64,000 nt of DNA from Granulicoccus phenolivorans DSM 17626 = NBRC 107789 = JCM 15570. GTDB lineage: Bacteria > Actinomycetota > Actinomycetes > Propionibacteriales > Propionibacteriaceae. Below the pieces are notes generated by a model that searched no databases, had not been told where the DNA came from, and saw only the letters and a program-made list of their open reading frames with translations. The stretch's first letter is position 1, and every line of letters starts with the position of its first letter. Shown here piece after piece: positions 32,626 through 38,968 of the stretch. The stretch is taken from assembly GCF_000423085.1 (NCBI RefSeq), contig NZ_AUHH01000002.1:124001-188000 (forward strand). The letters run 5' to 3'. A program made the position numbers and the translations under genes.

Positions 32626-32768
32626 GCAGCACAGGGGCGGGCCGGAGACGGTCGGTTACCAATTTGATGGAGAGGTTCCCGGTTCGATTCCGGGTCGGCG
32701 GTCACCGTCGGTAGCTCATGGCAGAGCACTACTGCCGGTCGTCACTACATGACCGCCCCGCTGGCTGC
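32626..32768 (+). ncRNA. Bacterial Y RNA (YrlA-like) with permuted tRNA-like domain
   Basis: The segment folds as a Y RNA. The end stem is GGGGCGG (32634-32640) with CCGCCCC (32753-32759), possibly extended by GCAGC/GCTGC (32626-32630, 32764-32768). A 10-bp helix joins 32647-32656 to 32734-32743. Its tip is a tRNA mimic in permuted order: a T-arm (5-bp stem, loop TTCGATT; 32678-32694), a 7-bp acceptor-like stem closed by a TCA loop (32695-32711), the two linker bases TA, and a D-arm (GCTC-ATGGCA-GAGC; 32714-32727). Y RNAs bind Ro60, whose gene follows. The stem ends are approximate. Confidence 0.85.
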
Positions 32769-32780
32769 GCCCTCACCGCG

Positions 32781-32852
32781 GGCGGGTGCGAGCCGGATGC
32801 GATCGGTTAACTCTGCCAACTTTCGGTCGCAGCACACACGTTCGCACCCGCC
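32781..32852 (+). promoter_or_regulatory. Large hairpin in the Ro60 leader
   Basis: Between the Y RNA and the Ro60 start, 11-base arms GGCGGGTGCGA (32781-32791) and TCGCACCCGCC (32842-32852) are exact complements. Inside, GCGATCG (32799-32805) pairs with CGGTCGC (32824-32830) using one G-U pair. It could end the Y RNA transcript, be part of the Ro60 mRNA leader, or be a second small RNA. Confidence 0.5.
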
Positions 32853-32883
32853 TTCGGCCCCCCGAGCACAGAGAGGAACCGAC

Positions 32884-34473
32884 GTGGACAGCTACACCCT
32901 TTTCAACCTTCGGCAGACCCCTCAGCTGCTGCCGGCCTCGCCCAAGCAGGTCCGTAACGCCGCGGGTGGGTACACCTTCCGCGTCGATGATGCGGCCCGG
33001 CTGCGCCGGTTCCTGACGCTCGGTTCGGAGGGTGGCACCTACTACACCCGTGATGTGGAACTGACCCGCGACAACGCGGCGGTGCTGTTCCGTCTCGCCG
33101 AGACCGATCACCGGACCCTGGTGGACCAGATCGTCGAGGTCTCCGAGGGTGGCCTGGCGCCGCGGCAGAATCCGGCGATCTTCGCGCTGGCGGTGGCCGC
33201 CGCCCATGGTGATGCCGACGCGCGGGCGTACGCCCTGTCGGTGCTGCCGCGGGTGTGCCGGACCGGAACCCACCTGTTCCTGTTCGCGCGCTACATCGAG
33301 CAGTTCCGTGGCTGGGGCCGTGGGCTGCGTCGCGCGGTGGCCGCGTGGTACACCGAGCGGGACGCCGCCGCGTTGGCGTACCAGGCGGCGAAGTACCGGC
33401 AGCGCGAGGGCTGGTCGCACCGCGATCTGCTCCGCCTGAGTCACCCGCAGGCGGTTTCCCCGGCCACGCGGGCGGTGTTCGACTGGATCTGCCACGAGAC
33501 GGTCGGGGCGGACACTCCGGCCCTGATCGGGGCGTTCGTTCGGACCCAGGAGCCGGGTGCGGATGTGCCCGCCCTCGTCGGTGAGTCGGGTCTGTCGTGG
33601 GAGATGCTGCCGGACTCTGCGCTGGCTGATCCGGCGGTGTGGGAGGCGTTGCTCGATCGTGGGATGCCGCAGACGGCGTTGCTGCGTCAACTGCCGCGGT
33701 TGACCCGGTTGGGTCTGCTGCCCGCGCTCGGCGGGCGGACCGCGGAGGTCGCGGCCCGGTTGGCCGATTCCGACCGGTTGCGGTCGGCGCGGGTCCACCC
33801 GGTGAATGTGCTGATCGCCCAGCGGACGTACGCCTCGGGGGCCTCGCTGCGCGGGGAGTCCACCTGGCGGCCGACCCGGCAGATCGTGGACGCGCTGGAT
33901 GCGGCGTTCTATGCCGCGTTCGGGGCGGTCGAGCCGGCCGGGAAGCGGACGATGCTGGCGCTGGACGTGTCGGGTTCGATGACGCAGCAGGTCTCCGGTC
34001 TGCCGCTGTCGTGCCGGGAGGCCTCGGCGGCGCTGGCCCTGGTCCAGGTGGCGACCGAGCCGCAGTGCGACGTGGTCGGGTTCACCGCCCAGGGCTCGTT
34101 TCGGGAGTCCGGACTGCAGCGCTTGACGATCAGCCCGCGGCAGCGGCTGGCGGATGCGGTCCGGGCGGTGTCGGACCTGCCGTTCGGGGCGACCGACTGT
34201 GCCCTCCCCGTCCAGGAGGCGCTGGCGTCGCGGACCCCGGTGGACACGTTCGTGGTCTACACCGACAACGAGACGTGGGCCGGGCGTACGCATCCGCACC
34301 AGGCGCTGCGGGAGTACCGGGAGAAGATGGGCATCGATGCGCGGATGATCGTGGTCGGAATGACCGCGACGCAGTGCTCGATCGCCGATCCGGATGATCC
34401 GGGAATGCTGGATGTGGCGGGCTTCGATGCCGGCGTACCGTCGCTGATCTCGTCGTTCTCCCGCGGCCTGTGA
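32884..34473 (+). CDS. rsr: Ro60-like RNA-binding protein (TROVE and VWA domains)
   Basis: A 529-aa ring-shaped RNA-binding protein, the bacterial homologue of the Ro60 autoantigen. The TROVE domain of HEAT-like helices covers about residues 1-330 (for example EQFRGWGRGLRRAVAAWY and KYRQREGWSHRDLLRLSHP), followed by a von Willebrand A domain with an intact MIDAS DVSGS (361-365). I place the start at the GTG at 32884, after GAGAGGA. The earlier ATG at 32749 lies inside the Y RNA stem and the added residues are not TROVE-like. Ro60 binds Y RNA and misfolded RNA, and in Deinococcus works with PNPase and in rRNA maturation under stress. No RtcB or PNPase gene is adjacent. Confidence 0.95.
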   Translation: MDSYTLFNLRQTPQLLPASPKQVRNAAGGYTFRVDDAARLRRFLTLGSEGGTYYTRDVELTRDNAAVLFRLAETDHRTLVDQIVEVSEGGLAPRQNPAIFALAVAAAHGDADARAYALSVLPRVCRTGTHLFLFARYIEQFRGWGRGLRRAVAAWYTERDAAALAYQAAKYRQREGWSHRDLLRLSHPQAVSPATRAVFDWICHETVGADTPALIGAFVRTQEPGADVPALVGESGLSWEMLPDSALADPAVWEALLDRGMPQTALLRQLPRLTRLGLLPALGGRTAEVAARLADSDRLRSARVHPVNVLIAQRTYASGASLRGESTWRPTRQIVDALDAAFYAAFGAVEPAGKRTMLALDVSGSMTQQVSGLPLSCREASAALALVQVATEPQCDVVGFTAQGSFRESGLQRLTISPRQRLADAVRAVSDLPFGATDCALPVQEALASRTPVDTFVVYTDNETWAGRTHPHQALREYREKMGIDARMIVVGMTATQCSIADPDDPGMLDVAGFDAGVPSLISSFSRGL

Positions 34474-36451: not shown

Positions 36452-36573
36452 GGTGGACGGCGTGTGCGAGGAATGGGCTGGCACAGCGGGGTACCAAGCG
36501 ACAGGTCTCGCGGCGGTGGCGGCACGCCGGGACGGCCGGCGGCAGGGCCAGGAGCGTTTTGCCTGGTCGGGCT

Positions 36574-36618
36574 GGGTGGGCGCAGAGGGACTCGAACCCC
36601 CGACTCCTTGCTTGTAAG
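36574..36618. repeat. Attachment-site duplication of the tRNA-Val 3' end
   Basis: These 45 bases repeat 39371-39415, the 3' half of tRNA-Val, with a single mismatch (T at 36608, C at 39405). They include the T-arm and anticodon loop but the tRNA is not completed. Such a copy is the standard mark left by a tyrosine-recombinase element integrating into a tRNA gene. The pair bounds a 2.8-kb element. Confidence 0.9.
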
Positions 36619-37052: not shown

Positions 37053-37336
37053 TCGAGCCACGCGAGGAAACTGCTCACCCAATCGACCTGGCACAACCTG
37101 TCCTGTGTCGACACCAGCTTGAGACGCTCTCGCATCACGATCGGCTTGACAGGTTTCGCGCCAGCATCGGTCCTGCGGCTTTGACTATGCGTCCGTGATT
37201 ATCGCGGGTCAGAAGTCCCAGCTGCCCGCCTAGGCGTGCTCCGGGGGTCGACCTAGCCTGGGGACCCCCGGAATCGACGTACAAGCCCGGAGTGGTCAGC
37301 ACCTACTCGATGCGGAGGCAGTTAGACTCCACGTCC

Positions 37337-38968
37337 ATGAGCGAGCCTGTCCTGAAGGTGCCTGCTGGTAGCGCGTTGCGGTCAGACGCAAGCCTGTACC
37401 GCCTAAAACTGGCGGTCACAAAAGCGCTTCGCGCACAGATGGATAGTACCTCGAAGTGGCGCGATATCGCCCAAGCAACAGGCACGGATCAACTGATCAA
37501 ATCCGTCCACACGGACGAGACGTTTCTTGATGTCATTGTTGATCGAATGGAGTGGCAAGATGACGAGTATGACGCAGCCGTTCGTGACTTTGTTGGCTCG
37601 TTGCTCGGCCTGAAGACTAATTTCATTCCGTTCAACGGGTCCGTTGTGACACCAACGCAACTACCCGTCCTGGAGGAAATGCTGAATCTCCCACAGTGGC
37701 TGGCAGAGCACGAGCCACTTCTTCACGGAGAACTGTATGCACCGGAACAGGATCATTTGGCCTCCACCTTCCCAGTGGACCTAGATGGCGTGCTAGCGGT
37801 TATGGACGCAGCCTCAGCCAACCTCGACCGGCTCCAGAAGGTGTGGGAGCGCGCGTCACGTATGCTGCCGACGGCGCCCGCTCGGGGCTCCGATCCCGAG
37901 TATGATGACCTGATGCGGGCATGGGGCACGTTGATCTCTGGCTTGCCTCCGATTGAAGGATGGACCATAACGCAGACTCCTCCATCAATGGATGAGATGA
38001 GAATTCTCTACTCGGCCGACGCCGAGGAAGACCAACCAGCGTATTCCGTATTTGAGCATATCGCCCAGGGACCGCAGAAGGATCTCGACGAGTATCGTTT
38101 TAGGCTCGCGAAGGCACGCAGAGTGGTGATCCGAGATCGTCTTCAGGATCTTGTGGGAATAGTTGACACGCTACTTCCCCAAATTCTTGATGGGGCGCCT
38201 GATGATTCGACCCCGGTAAATGATTCCCGTATCGAAGAGATAACTCGTTCGATCACTGAAATTGAGCGGCTTATGGGCGACACGGCTGCCAGAGTCGGTC
38301 GCTGGGGACACCTGCACCGCCATATTCGCTTCAGCGAAGGACACGATTGGCACGACATCCACGAATTGGATTGGCCAAGCGTCAAGGTAGACATTGAAGC
38401 TGCATGCTTTTCCGAGGTTGATCCGCTGCCTATCCCTCCAGGGGTCGATTTGGCACACTTGGCCGCGAGCAAGCCCAAAGGACCTGCTTCCACAGCGCTC
38501 AATTGGGATCTGCTCGACGACACCGGATTCGAACGACTTCTCTACGAATTGCTACTAGGCCTGCCGGGGTATCAGAACGTTCAGCTACTTATGAAGACGA
38601 GGGCCGCGGACCGTGGGCGCGATCTATCGGCGGAGTACGCCTACGATGACGGTGCCGGGGGCACTAGAACTGACCGAGTCATCGTGCAGGACAAGCACTG
38701 GCGATCGAAATCCGTCCCACCCGAAGAGATTCACAGTGGCCTGACAAGGATCCGTCTTTGGGAGCCGCCACCAATAGACGTCTACATCGTAGCAACCAGT
38801 GGTCATTTCTCGCCAGACGCAGTTGCGTGGATCGAGAAGCACAACCATGACGGAGGAAGGCCAAGGATCGACATGTGGCCCGAGGCCCGACTGAGTACGC
38901 TTCTGTCCCAGAAACCGCATCTCGTGGTCCAATTTGGTCTACGGTCAGCATCGGCAATCAGTGATTAA
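37337..38968 (+). CDS. Mrr-like restriction nuclease with a large novel N-terminal region
   Basis: A 543-aa protein. The last 155 residues form a restriction-endonuclease-like (Mrr) domain: FERLLYELLLGLPGYQNVQ, then the PD-(D/E)xK core DRGRDL (catalytic Asp) and VIVQDKHW (Gln-Asp-Lys, where Mrr proteins usually have Q-C/A-K). Residues 1-380 are helical and unrecognised. Base composition is clearly lower in GC than the chromosome. It is the only intact gene in the tRNA-Val element. A single-gene anti-phage role is likely by context and fold, but unproven. The ATG at 37337 was preferred to 37292, where the extra residues look random. Confidence 0.8.
   Translation: MSEPVLKVPAGSALRSDASLYRLKLAVTKALRAQMDSTSKWRDIAQATGTDQLIKSVHTDETFLDVIVDRMEWQDDEYDAAVRDFVGSLLGLKTNFIPFNGSVVTPTQLPVLEEMLNLPQWLAEHEPLLHGELYAPEQDHLASTFPVDLDGVLAVMDAASANLDRLQKVWERASRMLPTAPARGSDPEYDDLMRAWGTLISGLPPIEGWTITQTPPSMDEMRILYSADAEEDQPAYSVFEHIAQGPQKDLDEYRFRLAKARRVVIRDRLQDLVGIVDTLLPQILDGAPDDSTPVNDSRIEEITRSITEIERLMGDTAARVGRWGHLHRHIRFSEGHDWHDIHELDWPSVKVDIEAACFSEVDPLPIPPGVDLAHLAASKPKGPASTALNWDLLDDTGFERLLYELLLGLPGYQNVQLLMKTRAADRGRDLSAEYAYDDGAGGTRTDRVIVQDKHWRSKSVPPEEIHSGLTRIRLWEPPPIDVYIVATSGHFSPDAVAWIEKHNHDGGRPRIDMWPEARLSTLLSQKPHLVVQFGLRSASAISD

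Follow-up and report, generated by a model that had tools for sequence, protein, structure and literature searches.

What does the noncoding DNA in front of a ro60 (rsr) gene specify, and why does a part of it read as a tRNA in permuted order? The question is raised by a locus of Granulicoccus phenolivorans DSM 17626, which lies in a stretch of 64,000 nucleotides (contig NZ_AUHH01000002.1, positions 124,001 to 188,000), here called the window, to whose positions the coordinates refer. It is held very probable that 32633-32853 is a Y RNA locus. The fuller reading, in which this DNA makes up the noncoding portion of a Ro60 RNP locus, with a YrlA-type Y RNA (RNA 1) and then a bare Y RNA (RNA 2) in the ro60 leader and with PNPase tethering included as the working mode, is considered likely; that PNPase would be tethered in this organism, a point argued by analogy, stands by itself at about even chances.

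Two predicted Y RNAs and the ro60 gene

Mimicry of tRNA by bacterial Y RNAs was reportedly described by Chen in 2014. The crystal structure of Salmonella YrlA (6CU1) made the circular permutation relative to tRNA explicit (PMC11472068), hence permuted tRNA mimicry by a bacterial Y RNA is already published, and RNA 1 adds a further member. The YrlA RNAs (RF02553; Salmonella YrlA 6CU1; M. smegmatis Yrl RNA) have in common with RNA 1 the basal Ro60-binding stem and the adjacency to ro60, as well as the T-arm, closed acceptor-like hairpin, TA and D-arm, permuted relative to tRNA, whereas RNA 1 differs in its sequence, too distant for the Rfam gathering score (30.5 bits, with 69 required), its acceptor loop UCA and 6-nt D-loop, its location upstream of ro60, the bare second Y RNA beside it and the lack of an RtcB operon. 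The features of the locus are collected in Table 1.

Table 1. Predicted RNAs and ro60 features of the window (R1, covariance model described below); the last line gives a module found outside the window, with its own coordinates
Feature	Position	Strand	Support
YrlA-type Y RNA (RNA 1), whole predicted unit	32633-32761	+	R1 104.9 bits, E 1.3e-20 (window sequence in R1 training set); Rfam YrlA 30.5 bits at 32648-32759
End stem, GGGGCGG with CCGCCCC	32634-32640 with 32753-32759	+	sequence; consensus helix 1, 96.6% of cells paired
10-bp inner helix, GACGGTCGGT with GCCGGTCGTC, three G-U pairs	32647-32656 with 32734-32743	+	sequence; consensus helix 2
Conserved Y-core motif TCGGTTACC	32652-32660	+	GGTTA invariant in 41/41 homologues, likewise the C that follows two bases later
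TGGAG (tRNA 39-43 equivalent) and variable loop AGGTT (32673-32677; tRNA 44-48)	32668-32677	+	family-wide pairing with 27-31 at tRNA register
T-arm CCCGG-TTCGATT-CCGGG	32678-32694	+	sequence; helix 3; T-loop TTCGA invariant
Acceptor-like hairpin TCGGCGG/CCGTCGG, loop TCA	32695-32701 with 32705-32711	+	sequence; helix 4
Linker TA (tRNA 8-9) and D-arm GCTC-ATGGCA-GAGC	32712-32713 and 32714-32727	+	sequence; D-stem invariant in 41/41
CTACT (tRNA 27-31 equivalent)	32729-32733	+	pairing with 39-43 equivalent
Second Y RNA (RNA 2), without tRNA-like domain	32780-32853	+	R1 49.4 bits, E 1e-8, outside training set
RNA 2 outer helix	32781-32793 with 32840-32852	+	
RNA 2 inner helix	32798-32806 with 32823-32831	+	
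Ribosome-binding site GAGAGGA	32871-32877	+	sequence; AAGGAGG at the same place in relatives
ro60/rsr CDS, 529 aa, TROVE and vWA domains, MIDAS DVSGS kept	32884-34473	+	GTG start 32884, stop 34473
Cloverleaf RNA with 282-aa protein, module	L091 4304-5292; also L089, L090, L092, L105, L107, L110, L111, L112, L113		

The basal stem of RNA 1 (helices 1 and 2) joins its 5′ and 3′ ends and holds 12 pairs with two-sided changes among homologues; in helix 2 of the 41-RNA alignment 92.6% of the cells are paired, with changes on both sides in six of eight consensus pairs. Within this stem the T, acceptor and D arms follow each other in permuted order, in the sequence as in the alignment. The acceptor-like hairpin (32695-32711) has seven pairs, two of them G-U, and its helix 4 carries two-sided changes in five of six consensus pairs, while the D-stem never varies across the 41 homologues, i.e., it is conserved and outside the reach of a covariation test. 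Candidate nucleotides for a pseudouridine in the T-loop and a dihydrouridine in the D-loop can be pointed out. The initial annotation had drawn this geometry correctly: its T-arm, acceptor-like stem, TA and D-arm at 32678-32727 agree with the sequence base for base in all coordinates and arm lengths, and its outer 10-bp helix and GGGGCGG/CCGCCCC end stem are read in the sequence and paired in consensus helices 1 and 2. It missed RNA 2 and the remnants of the variable loop and of an anticodon stem. Family-wide, 148 of 205 cells are paired between the bases equivalent to 27-31 and those equivalent to 39-43 (z 9.3 vs. row shuffles), at a register that matches tRNA exactly, with one base 26 and a 5-base variable loop, whereas registers off the tRNA diagonal reach z of at most about 2.9. 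In the window RNA this anticodon-like stem is partial (three of five pairs), and since the Rfam YrlA structure also has a 4-bp stem at that position, it is not new to the family.

RNA 2 keeps both Y helices, outer and inner, and has a plain loop where the tRNA domain would be; the fold z for its region (32765-32870) is -2.79, and its motifs GCCGGA, TCGGTTA, CGGTCG and CACACACG are those of relatives. In having basal stem and inner helix only, it would resemble YrlB-type or other Y RNAs that lack a tRNA domain, and it carries the actinobacterial core motifs GCCGGA, TCGGTTA and CACACACG. From its end to the start codon of ro60 there are 31 nt, and from the end of RNA 1 at 32761 to the CDS 123 nt.

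The genome has one Ro60 locus. The protein matches TROVE (PF05731, E 1.3e-50) and vWA_Ro60 (PF25045, E 8.9e-62), it aligns with solved vertebrate Ro60 structures over nearly its whole length, and the match to D. radiodurans Rsr (2nvo) spans residues 11-528, the same residues that are covered by NCBIfam RNA-bind_Rsr with 476 bits, under its 900-bit cut-off. The coding sequence does not begin inside RNA 1; the longer, ATG-initiated ORF from 32749 is an unlikely start, because homologues begin at GTG 32884. A consensus scan of the locus, not made for actinobacteria, gave no promoter-like (sigma-70) or intrinsic-terminator sites, and simple pattern searches upstream of the first Y RNA gave no DNA-damage motif (RecA-NDp/PafBC type, SOS box) in the window or in relatives. 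A palindrome GTGTA..TACAC, often near TTGACA, lies upstream of the first Y RNA in L007, L010, L011, L013, L015, L022, L027 and L032 and may be an operator shared by these relatives; the window lacks it.

Family membership and distribution

A cmscan against 4227 Rfam families gave YrlA (RF02553) as the best match of RNA 1 (E 8.6e-4), but with 30.5 bits the gathering score of 69 was not reached. The RNA 1 locus is the sole YrlA match at E ≤ 0.001 in the 4.1-Mb genome, yet the Rfam score alone is indecisive, since sub-threshold YrlA matches also appear in 7 of 14 control genomes; therefore 80 Ro60 loci were taken and their upstream regions inspected. An Rfam score threshold is a choice of curation and no biological defining feature. 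Because the six actinobacterial relatives that were scanned also miss it, with 34-40 bits, the shortfall seems to lie with the model and not with RNA 1.

The covariance model R1 was built from an alignment (A1) of 41 RNAs, 39 of them actinobacterial and two from other phyla (L058, L061). The window sequence belongs to this set, hence the 104.9 bits of RNA 1 are not independent evidence, and independent support comes from covariation and from the relatives. The A1 consensus has 33 pairs, 20 of which show compensatory change on both sides; 93.6% of the cells are paired, vs. 36-50% when partners are slid, and two-sided changed cells number 210, vs. 65.7 ± 6.3 in shuffles. Covariance in homologues, on which the initial annotation had let its reading depend, is thus present and above all controls, and the comparison with other actinobacterial Ro60 loci that it had proposed gave the same geometry upstream of ro60 in nearly all loci examined. 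Family models, homologues and covariation together support the prediction for RNA 1, namely a bacterial Y RNA of the YrlA type at a Ro60 locus, in which a tRNA is mimicked in circularly permuted order.

Among the 54 actinobacterial loci of the sample (L004-L057), nearly all have the order T-arm, closed acceptor, D-arm on the ro60 strand, a few hundred bases upstream, and 50 give an R1 match of at least 80 bits on that strand. An order-level survey of 294 genomes found Ro60 in 25, and in 24 of these R1 gives a match that reaches 50 bits or more; the exception, G018, has no R1 match near its Ro60. Ro60 together with a permuted-tRNA Y RNA is the rule of the lineage. The actinobacterial Y RNAs, being under the Rfam threshold where scanned, are probably unannotated in most genomes of the phylum.

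The number of Y RNAs per locus, tallied over 54 loci including the window, is one in 7, two in 23, three in 14 and four in 10. By a motif-based and partly hand-corrected classification, the units comprise 69 full tRNA mimics, two of which have an unusual D-arm, as well as 36 units with the T-arm only and 30 bare ones. In 45 of 47 multi-unit loci a full mimic takes the position most distant from ro60, and in 38 of 47 the unit nearest to ro60 is bare or T-arm-only, a pattern which the window order, full and then bare, fits. This natural series makes the role of the tRNA part testable.

Some single cases are of note. Y RNAs in L009 (4817-4954) and L041 (4820-4957) have a D-arm part (GTGGTCGAGCGGCCCAAGACGCC in L009, near-identical in L041) that resembles a different, class II-like tRNA D-arm. 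In G252, a Y RNA with a Y core and a compensated D-stem GTGT/ACAC (L093 4970-5114) lies about 1.9 Mb from the Ro60 of that genome, near a trigger-factor gene, and in a Chloroflexi MAG ro60 is followed downstream by five Y RNA matches in tandem (L079 7087-7885). Several T-loop motifs surround ro60 in myxobacterial, Bradyrhizobium and other loci (L059, L062, L063, L064, L065, L067, L069, L072, L078, L081), which suggests tRNA gene arrays at these Ro60 loci. Many unlinked partial R1 matches (positions about 28-108) looked like tRNA genes lying side by side, which imitate the permuted order where they join; for the two that were fetched, L095 and L096, this was confirmed. Bacterial Y RNAs (window 32633-32759; L007, L008, L009) also match the nematode sbRNA model ceN72-3_ceN74-2 below threshold (27-31 bits, gathering 38), and these matches rest on the Y core helix and the GGUUA region.

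Partners and possible modes of action

RtcB is absent from the genome of the window (98.5% complete) and the PNPase gene is present, on another contig, therefore both were rejected as operon partners, and it was correctly noted at the outset that neither is a neighbor. Across the order RtcB occurs in 17 of 25 genomes that bear Ro60, vs. 126 of 269 that do not, and where both coordinates are shown it is found on a different contig or at a distance of over 200 kb from Ro60; within the fetched flanks no actinobacterial Ro60 locus had RtcB, and only L060 and L061 did. Since RtcB is unlinked from Ro60 throughout the order, its lack as a neighbor is a lineage rule and no peculiarity of this locus, and the Ro60–Y RNA pair stands alone. 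The novelty ascribed at first to this occurrence, its geometry and the missing RtcB and PNPase genes was thus overstated, the geometry being nearly universal at the actinobacterial Ro60 loci examined. With the Salmonella rsr-yrlBA-rtcBA repair operon the window shares rsr and two Y RNAs, one of them tRNA-like, but its RNAs lie before rsr and not after it, and RtcB-dependent RNA repair would play no part here.

Rsr binds the basal stem of Y RNA in Salmonella and M. smegmatis (PMC4726728), and YrlA was described as a substrate of DusA and TruB and as a component of RYPER, in which the RNA tethers PNPase (PMC8394870). By extension from such established Rsr work, the protein of the window would bind either RNA at its basal Y stem, and the Y RNA would block a part of the Ro60 ring and tether an effector. 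The tRNA-like module may be a substrate for enzymes of the tRNA elbow or T-arm (TruB and DusA in other bacteria) and may serve as a docking surface, most likely for PNPase, which would yield a RYPER-type machine for the decay of structured RNA; with the acceptor closed and a CCA end lacking at the 3′ side, neither charging nor use in translation is expected. The D. radiodurans assembly of Rsr, Y RNA and PNPase (RYPER) shares with the window an Rsr orthologue, a Y RNA and a PNPase gene. RYPER is a physical complex; a like assembly in the organism of the window would draw on a PNPase encoded on another contig.

One may ask whether the RNA is mainly a decoy, i.e., a competitive inhibitor of enzymes that cleave or modify tRNA, and not a PNPase tether. 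The conserved part is the tRNA-like surface, Y RNAs with only a T-arm are common in relatives, a permuted tRNA mimic without Y core pairs elsewhere with a HEPN-motif protein, and a role of YrlA as a decoy against an anticodon nuclease was already proposed (PMC7790460). Yet next to ro60 no tRNA-cleaving enzyme was recognized, the bare second Y RNA offers no tRNA surface, and the tether is the function that has experimental support in bacteria, so that the decoy as the main role appears unlikely, though it retains some weight. The tethering Y RNA pair is also preferred to a cis-acting leader, in which the hairpins would control ro60 and not form stable trans-acting Y RNAs. Such control would suit two hairpins that both lie within the presumed ro60 leader, the second close to the start codon, and for which no separate promoter was found in the consensus scan; but relatives carry one to four units at varied distances, the L079 Y RNAs sit downstream of ro60, the tRNA elbow nucleotides are conserved although a leader hairpin does not need them, and Rsr-bound Yrl RNAs are known in M. 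smegmatis (PMC4726728), which together leave the leader a rather improbable explanation.

It is hardly conceivable that a decayed tRNA gene, or tRNA fragments brought beside ro60 by chance, account for the tRNA-like parts. Genomic tRNA fragments do occur, e.g., at 36560-36610 of the window; however, the compensatory changes, the presence of a Y core and a position that dozens of species have kept argue against such an origin, as does ARAGORN, which calls no tRNA at RNA 1, and covariation together with the phylogenetic link to Ro60 ruled it out. The fragment at 36560-36610 on the minus strand (GGGGGTTCGAGTCCCTCTGCGCCCACC), which resembles a tRNA 3′ end and is not called as a tRNA, lies near an Mrr-type restriction gene (37292-38968) and is possibly an integration scar.

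Permuted cloverleaf RNAs beside a HEPN-motif protein

Outside the window, R1 also matches Kribbella-like genomes of 8-9 Mb that have no Ro60 (G076, G097, G115), as well as G058, likewise Kribbella-like, whose Ro60 locus is elsewhere in the genome. These RNAs have no Y core; their permuted cloverleaf is complete and includes an anticodon-type stem AAGTGG/CCACTT, a terminator hairpin is present as well, and each RNA is convergent with a gene for a 282-aa protein, for which no convincing match was found in Pfam, NCBIfam, PADLOC or PDB. Homologues of this protein, with identities as low as about 23%, are accompanied by an RNA of this kind in the corresponding position (L105, L107, L110-L113); L106 has the homologue without the cloverleaf RNA.

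Most but not all homologues of the protein carry a motif RNxxxH, which fits the HEPN ribonuclease motif given as R-phi-xxx-H (PMC12373285); in the same report AbiF, a HEPN-like protein, is neutralized by a noncoding RNA (PMC12373285). By analogy, a tRNA-mimic RNA that restrains a HEPN-type nuclease would be a natural guess. The permuted cloverleaf with closed acceptor could then be a portable fold, present in the Ro60-linked series and as the RNA half of a Ro60-independent module with a HEPN-motif protein, where its tRNA mimicry might make it an antitoxin or a guard for a ribonuclease directed at tRNA; we propose this tentatively, its chances falling a little short of even. If confirmed, the HEPN-linked relative would extend the permuted tRNA to a new use.

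Three of the modules lie on plasmids, namely L111 (Mycolicibacterium), beside Pycsar genes, L112 (Rhodococcus) and L113 (Streptomyces), the weakest case, with an R1 match of only 13.4 bits. The anticodon-type stem varies compensatorily between AAGTGG/CCACTT, AAGCGGG/CCCGCTT and AGTTGG/CCAACT, and in L108 and L109 the protein gene is broken while the RNA match remains.
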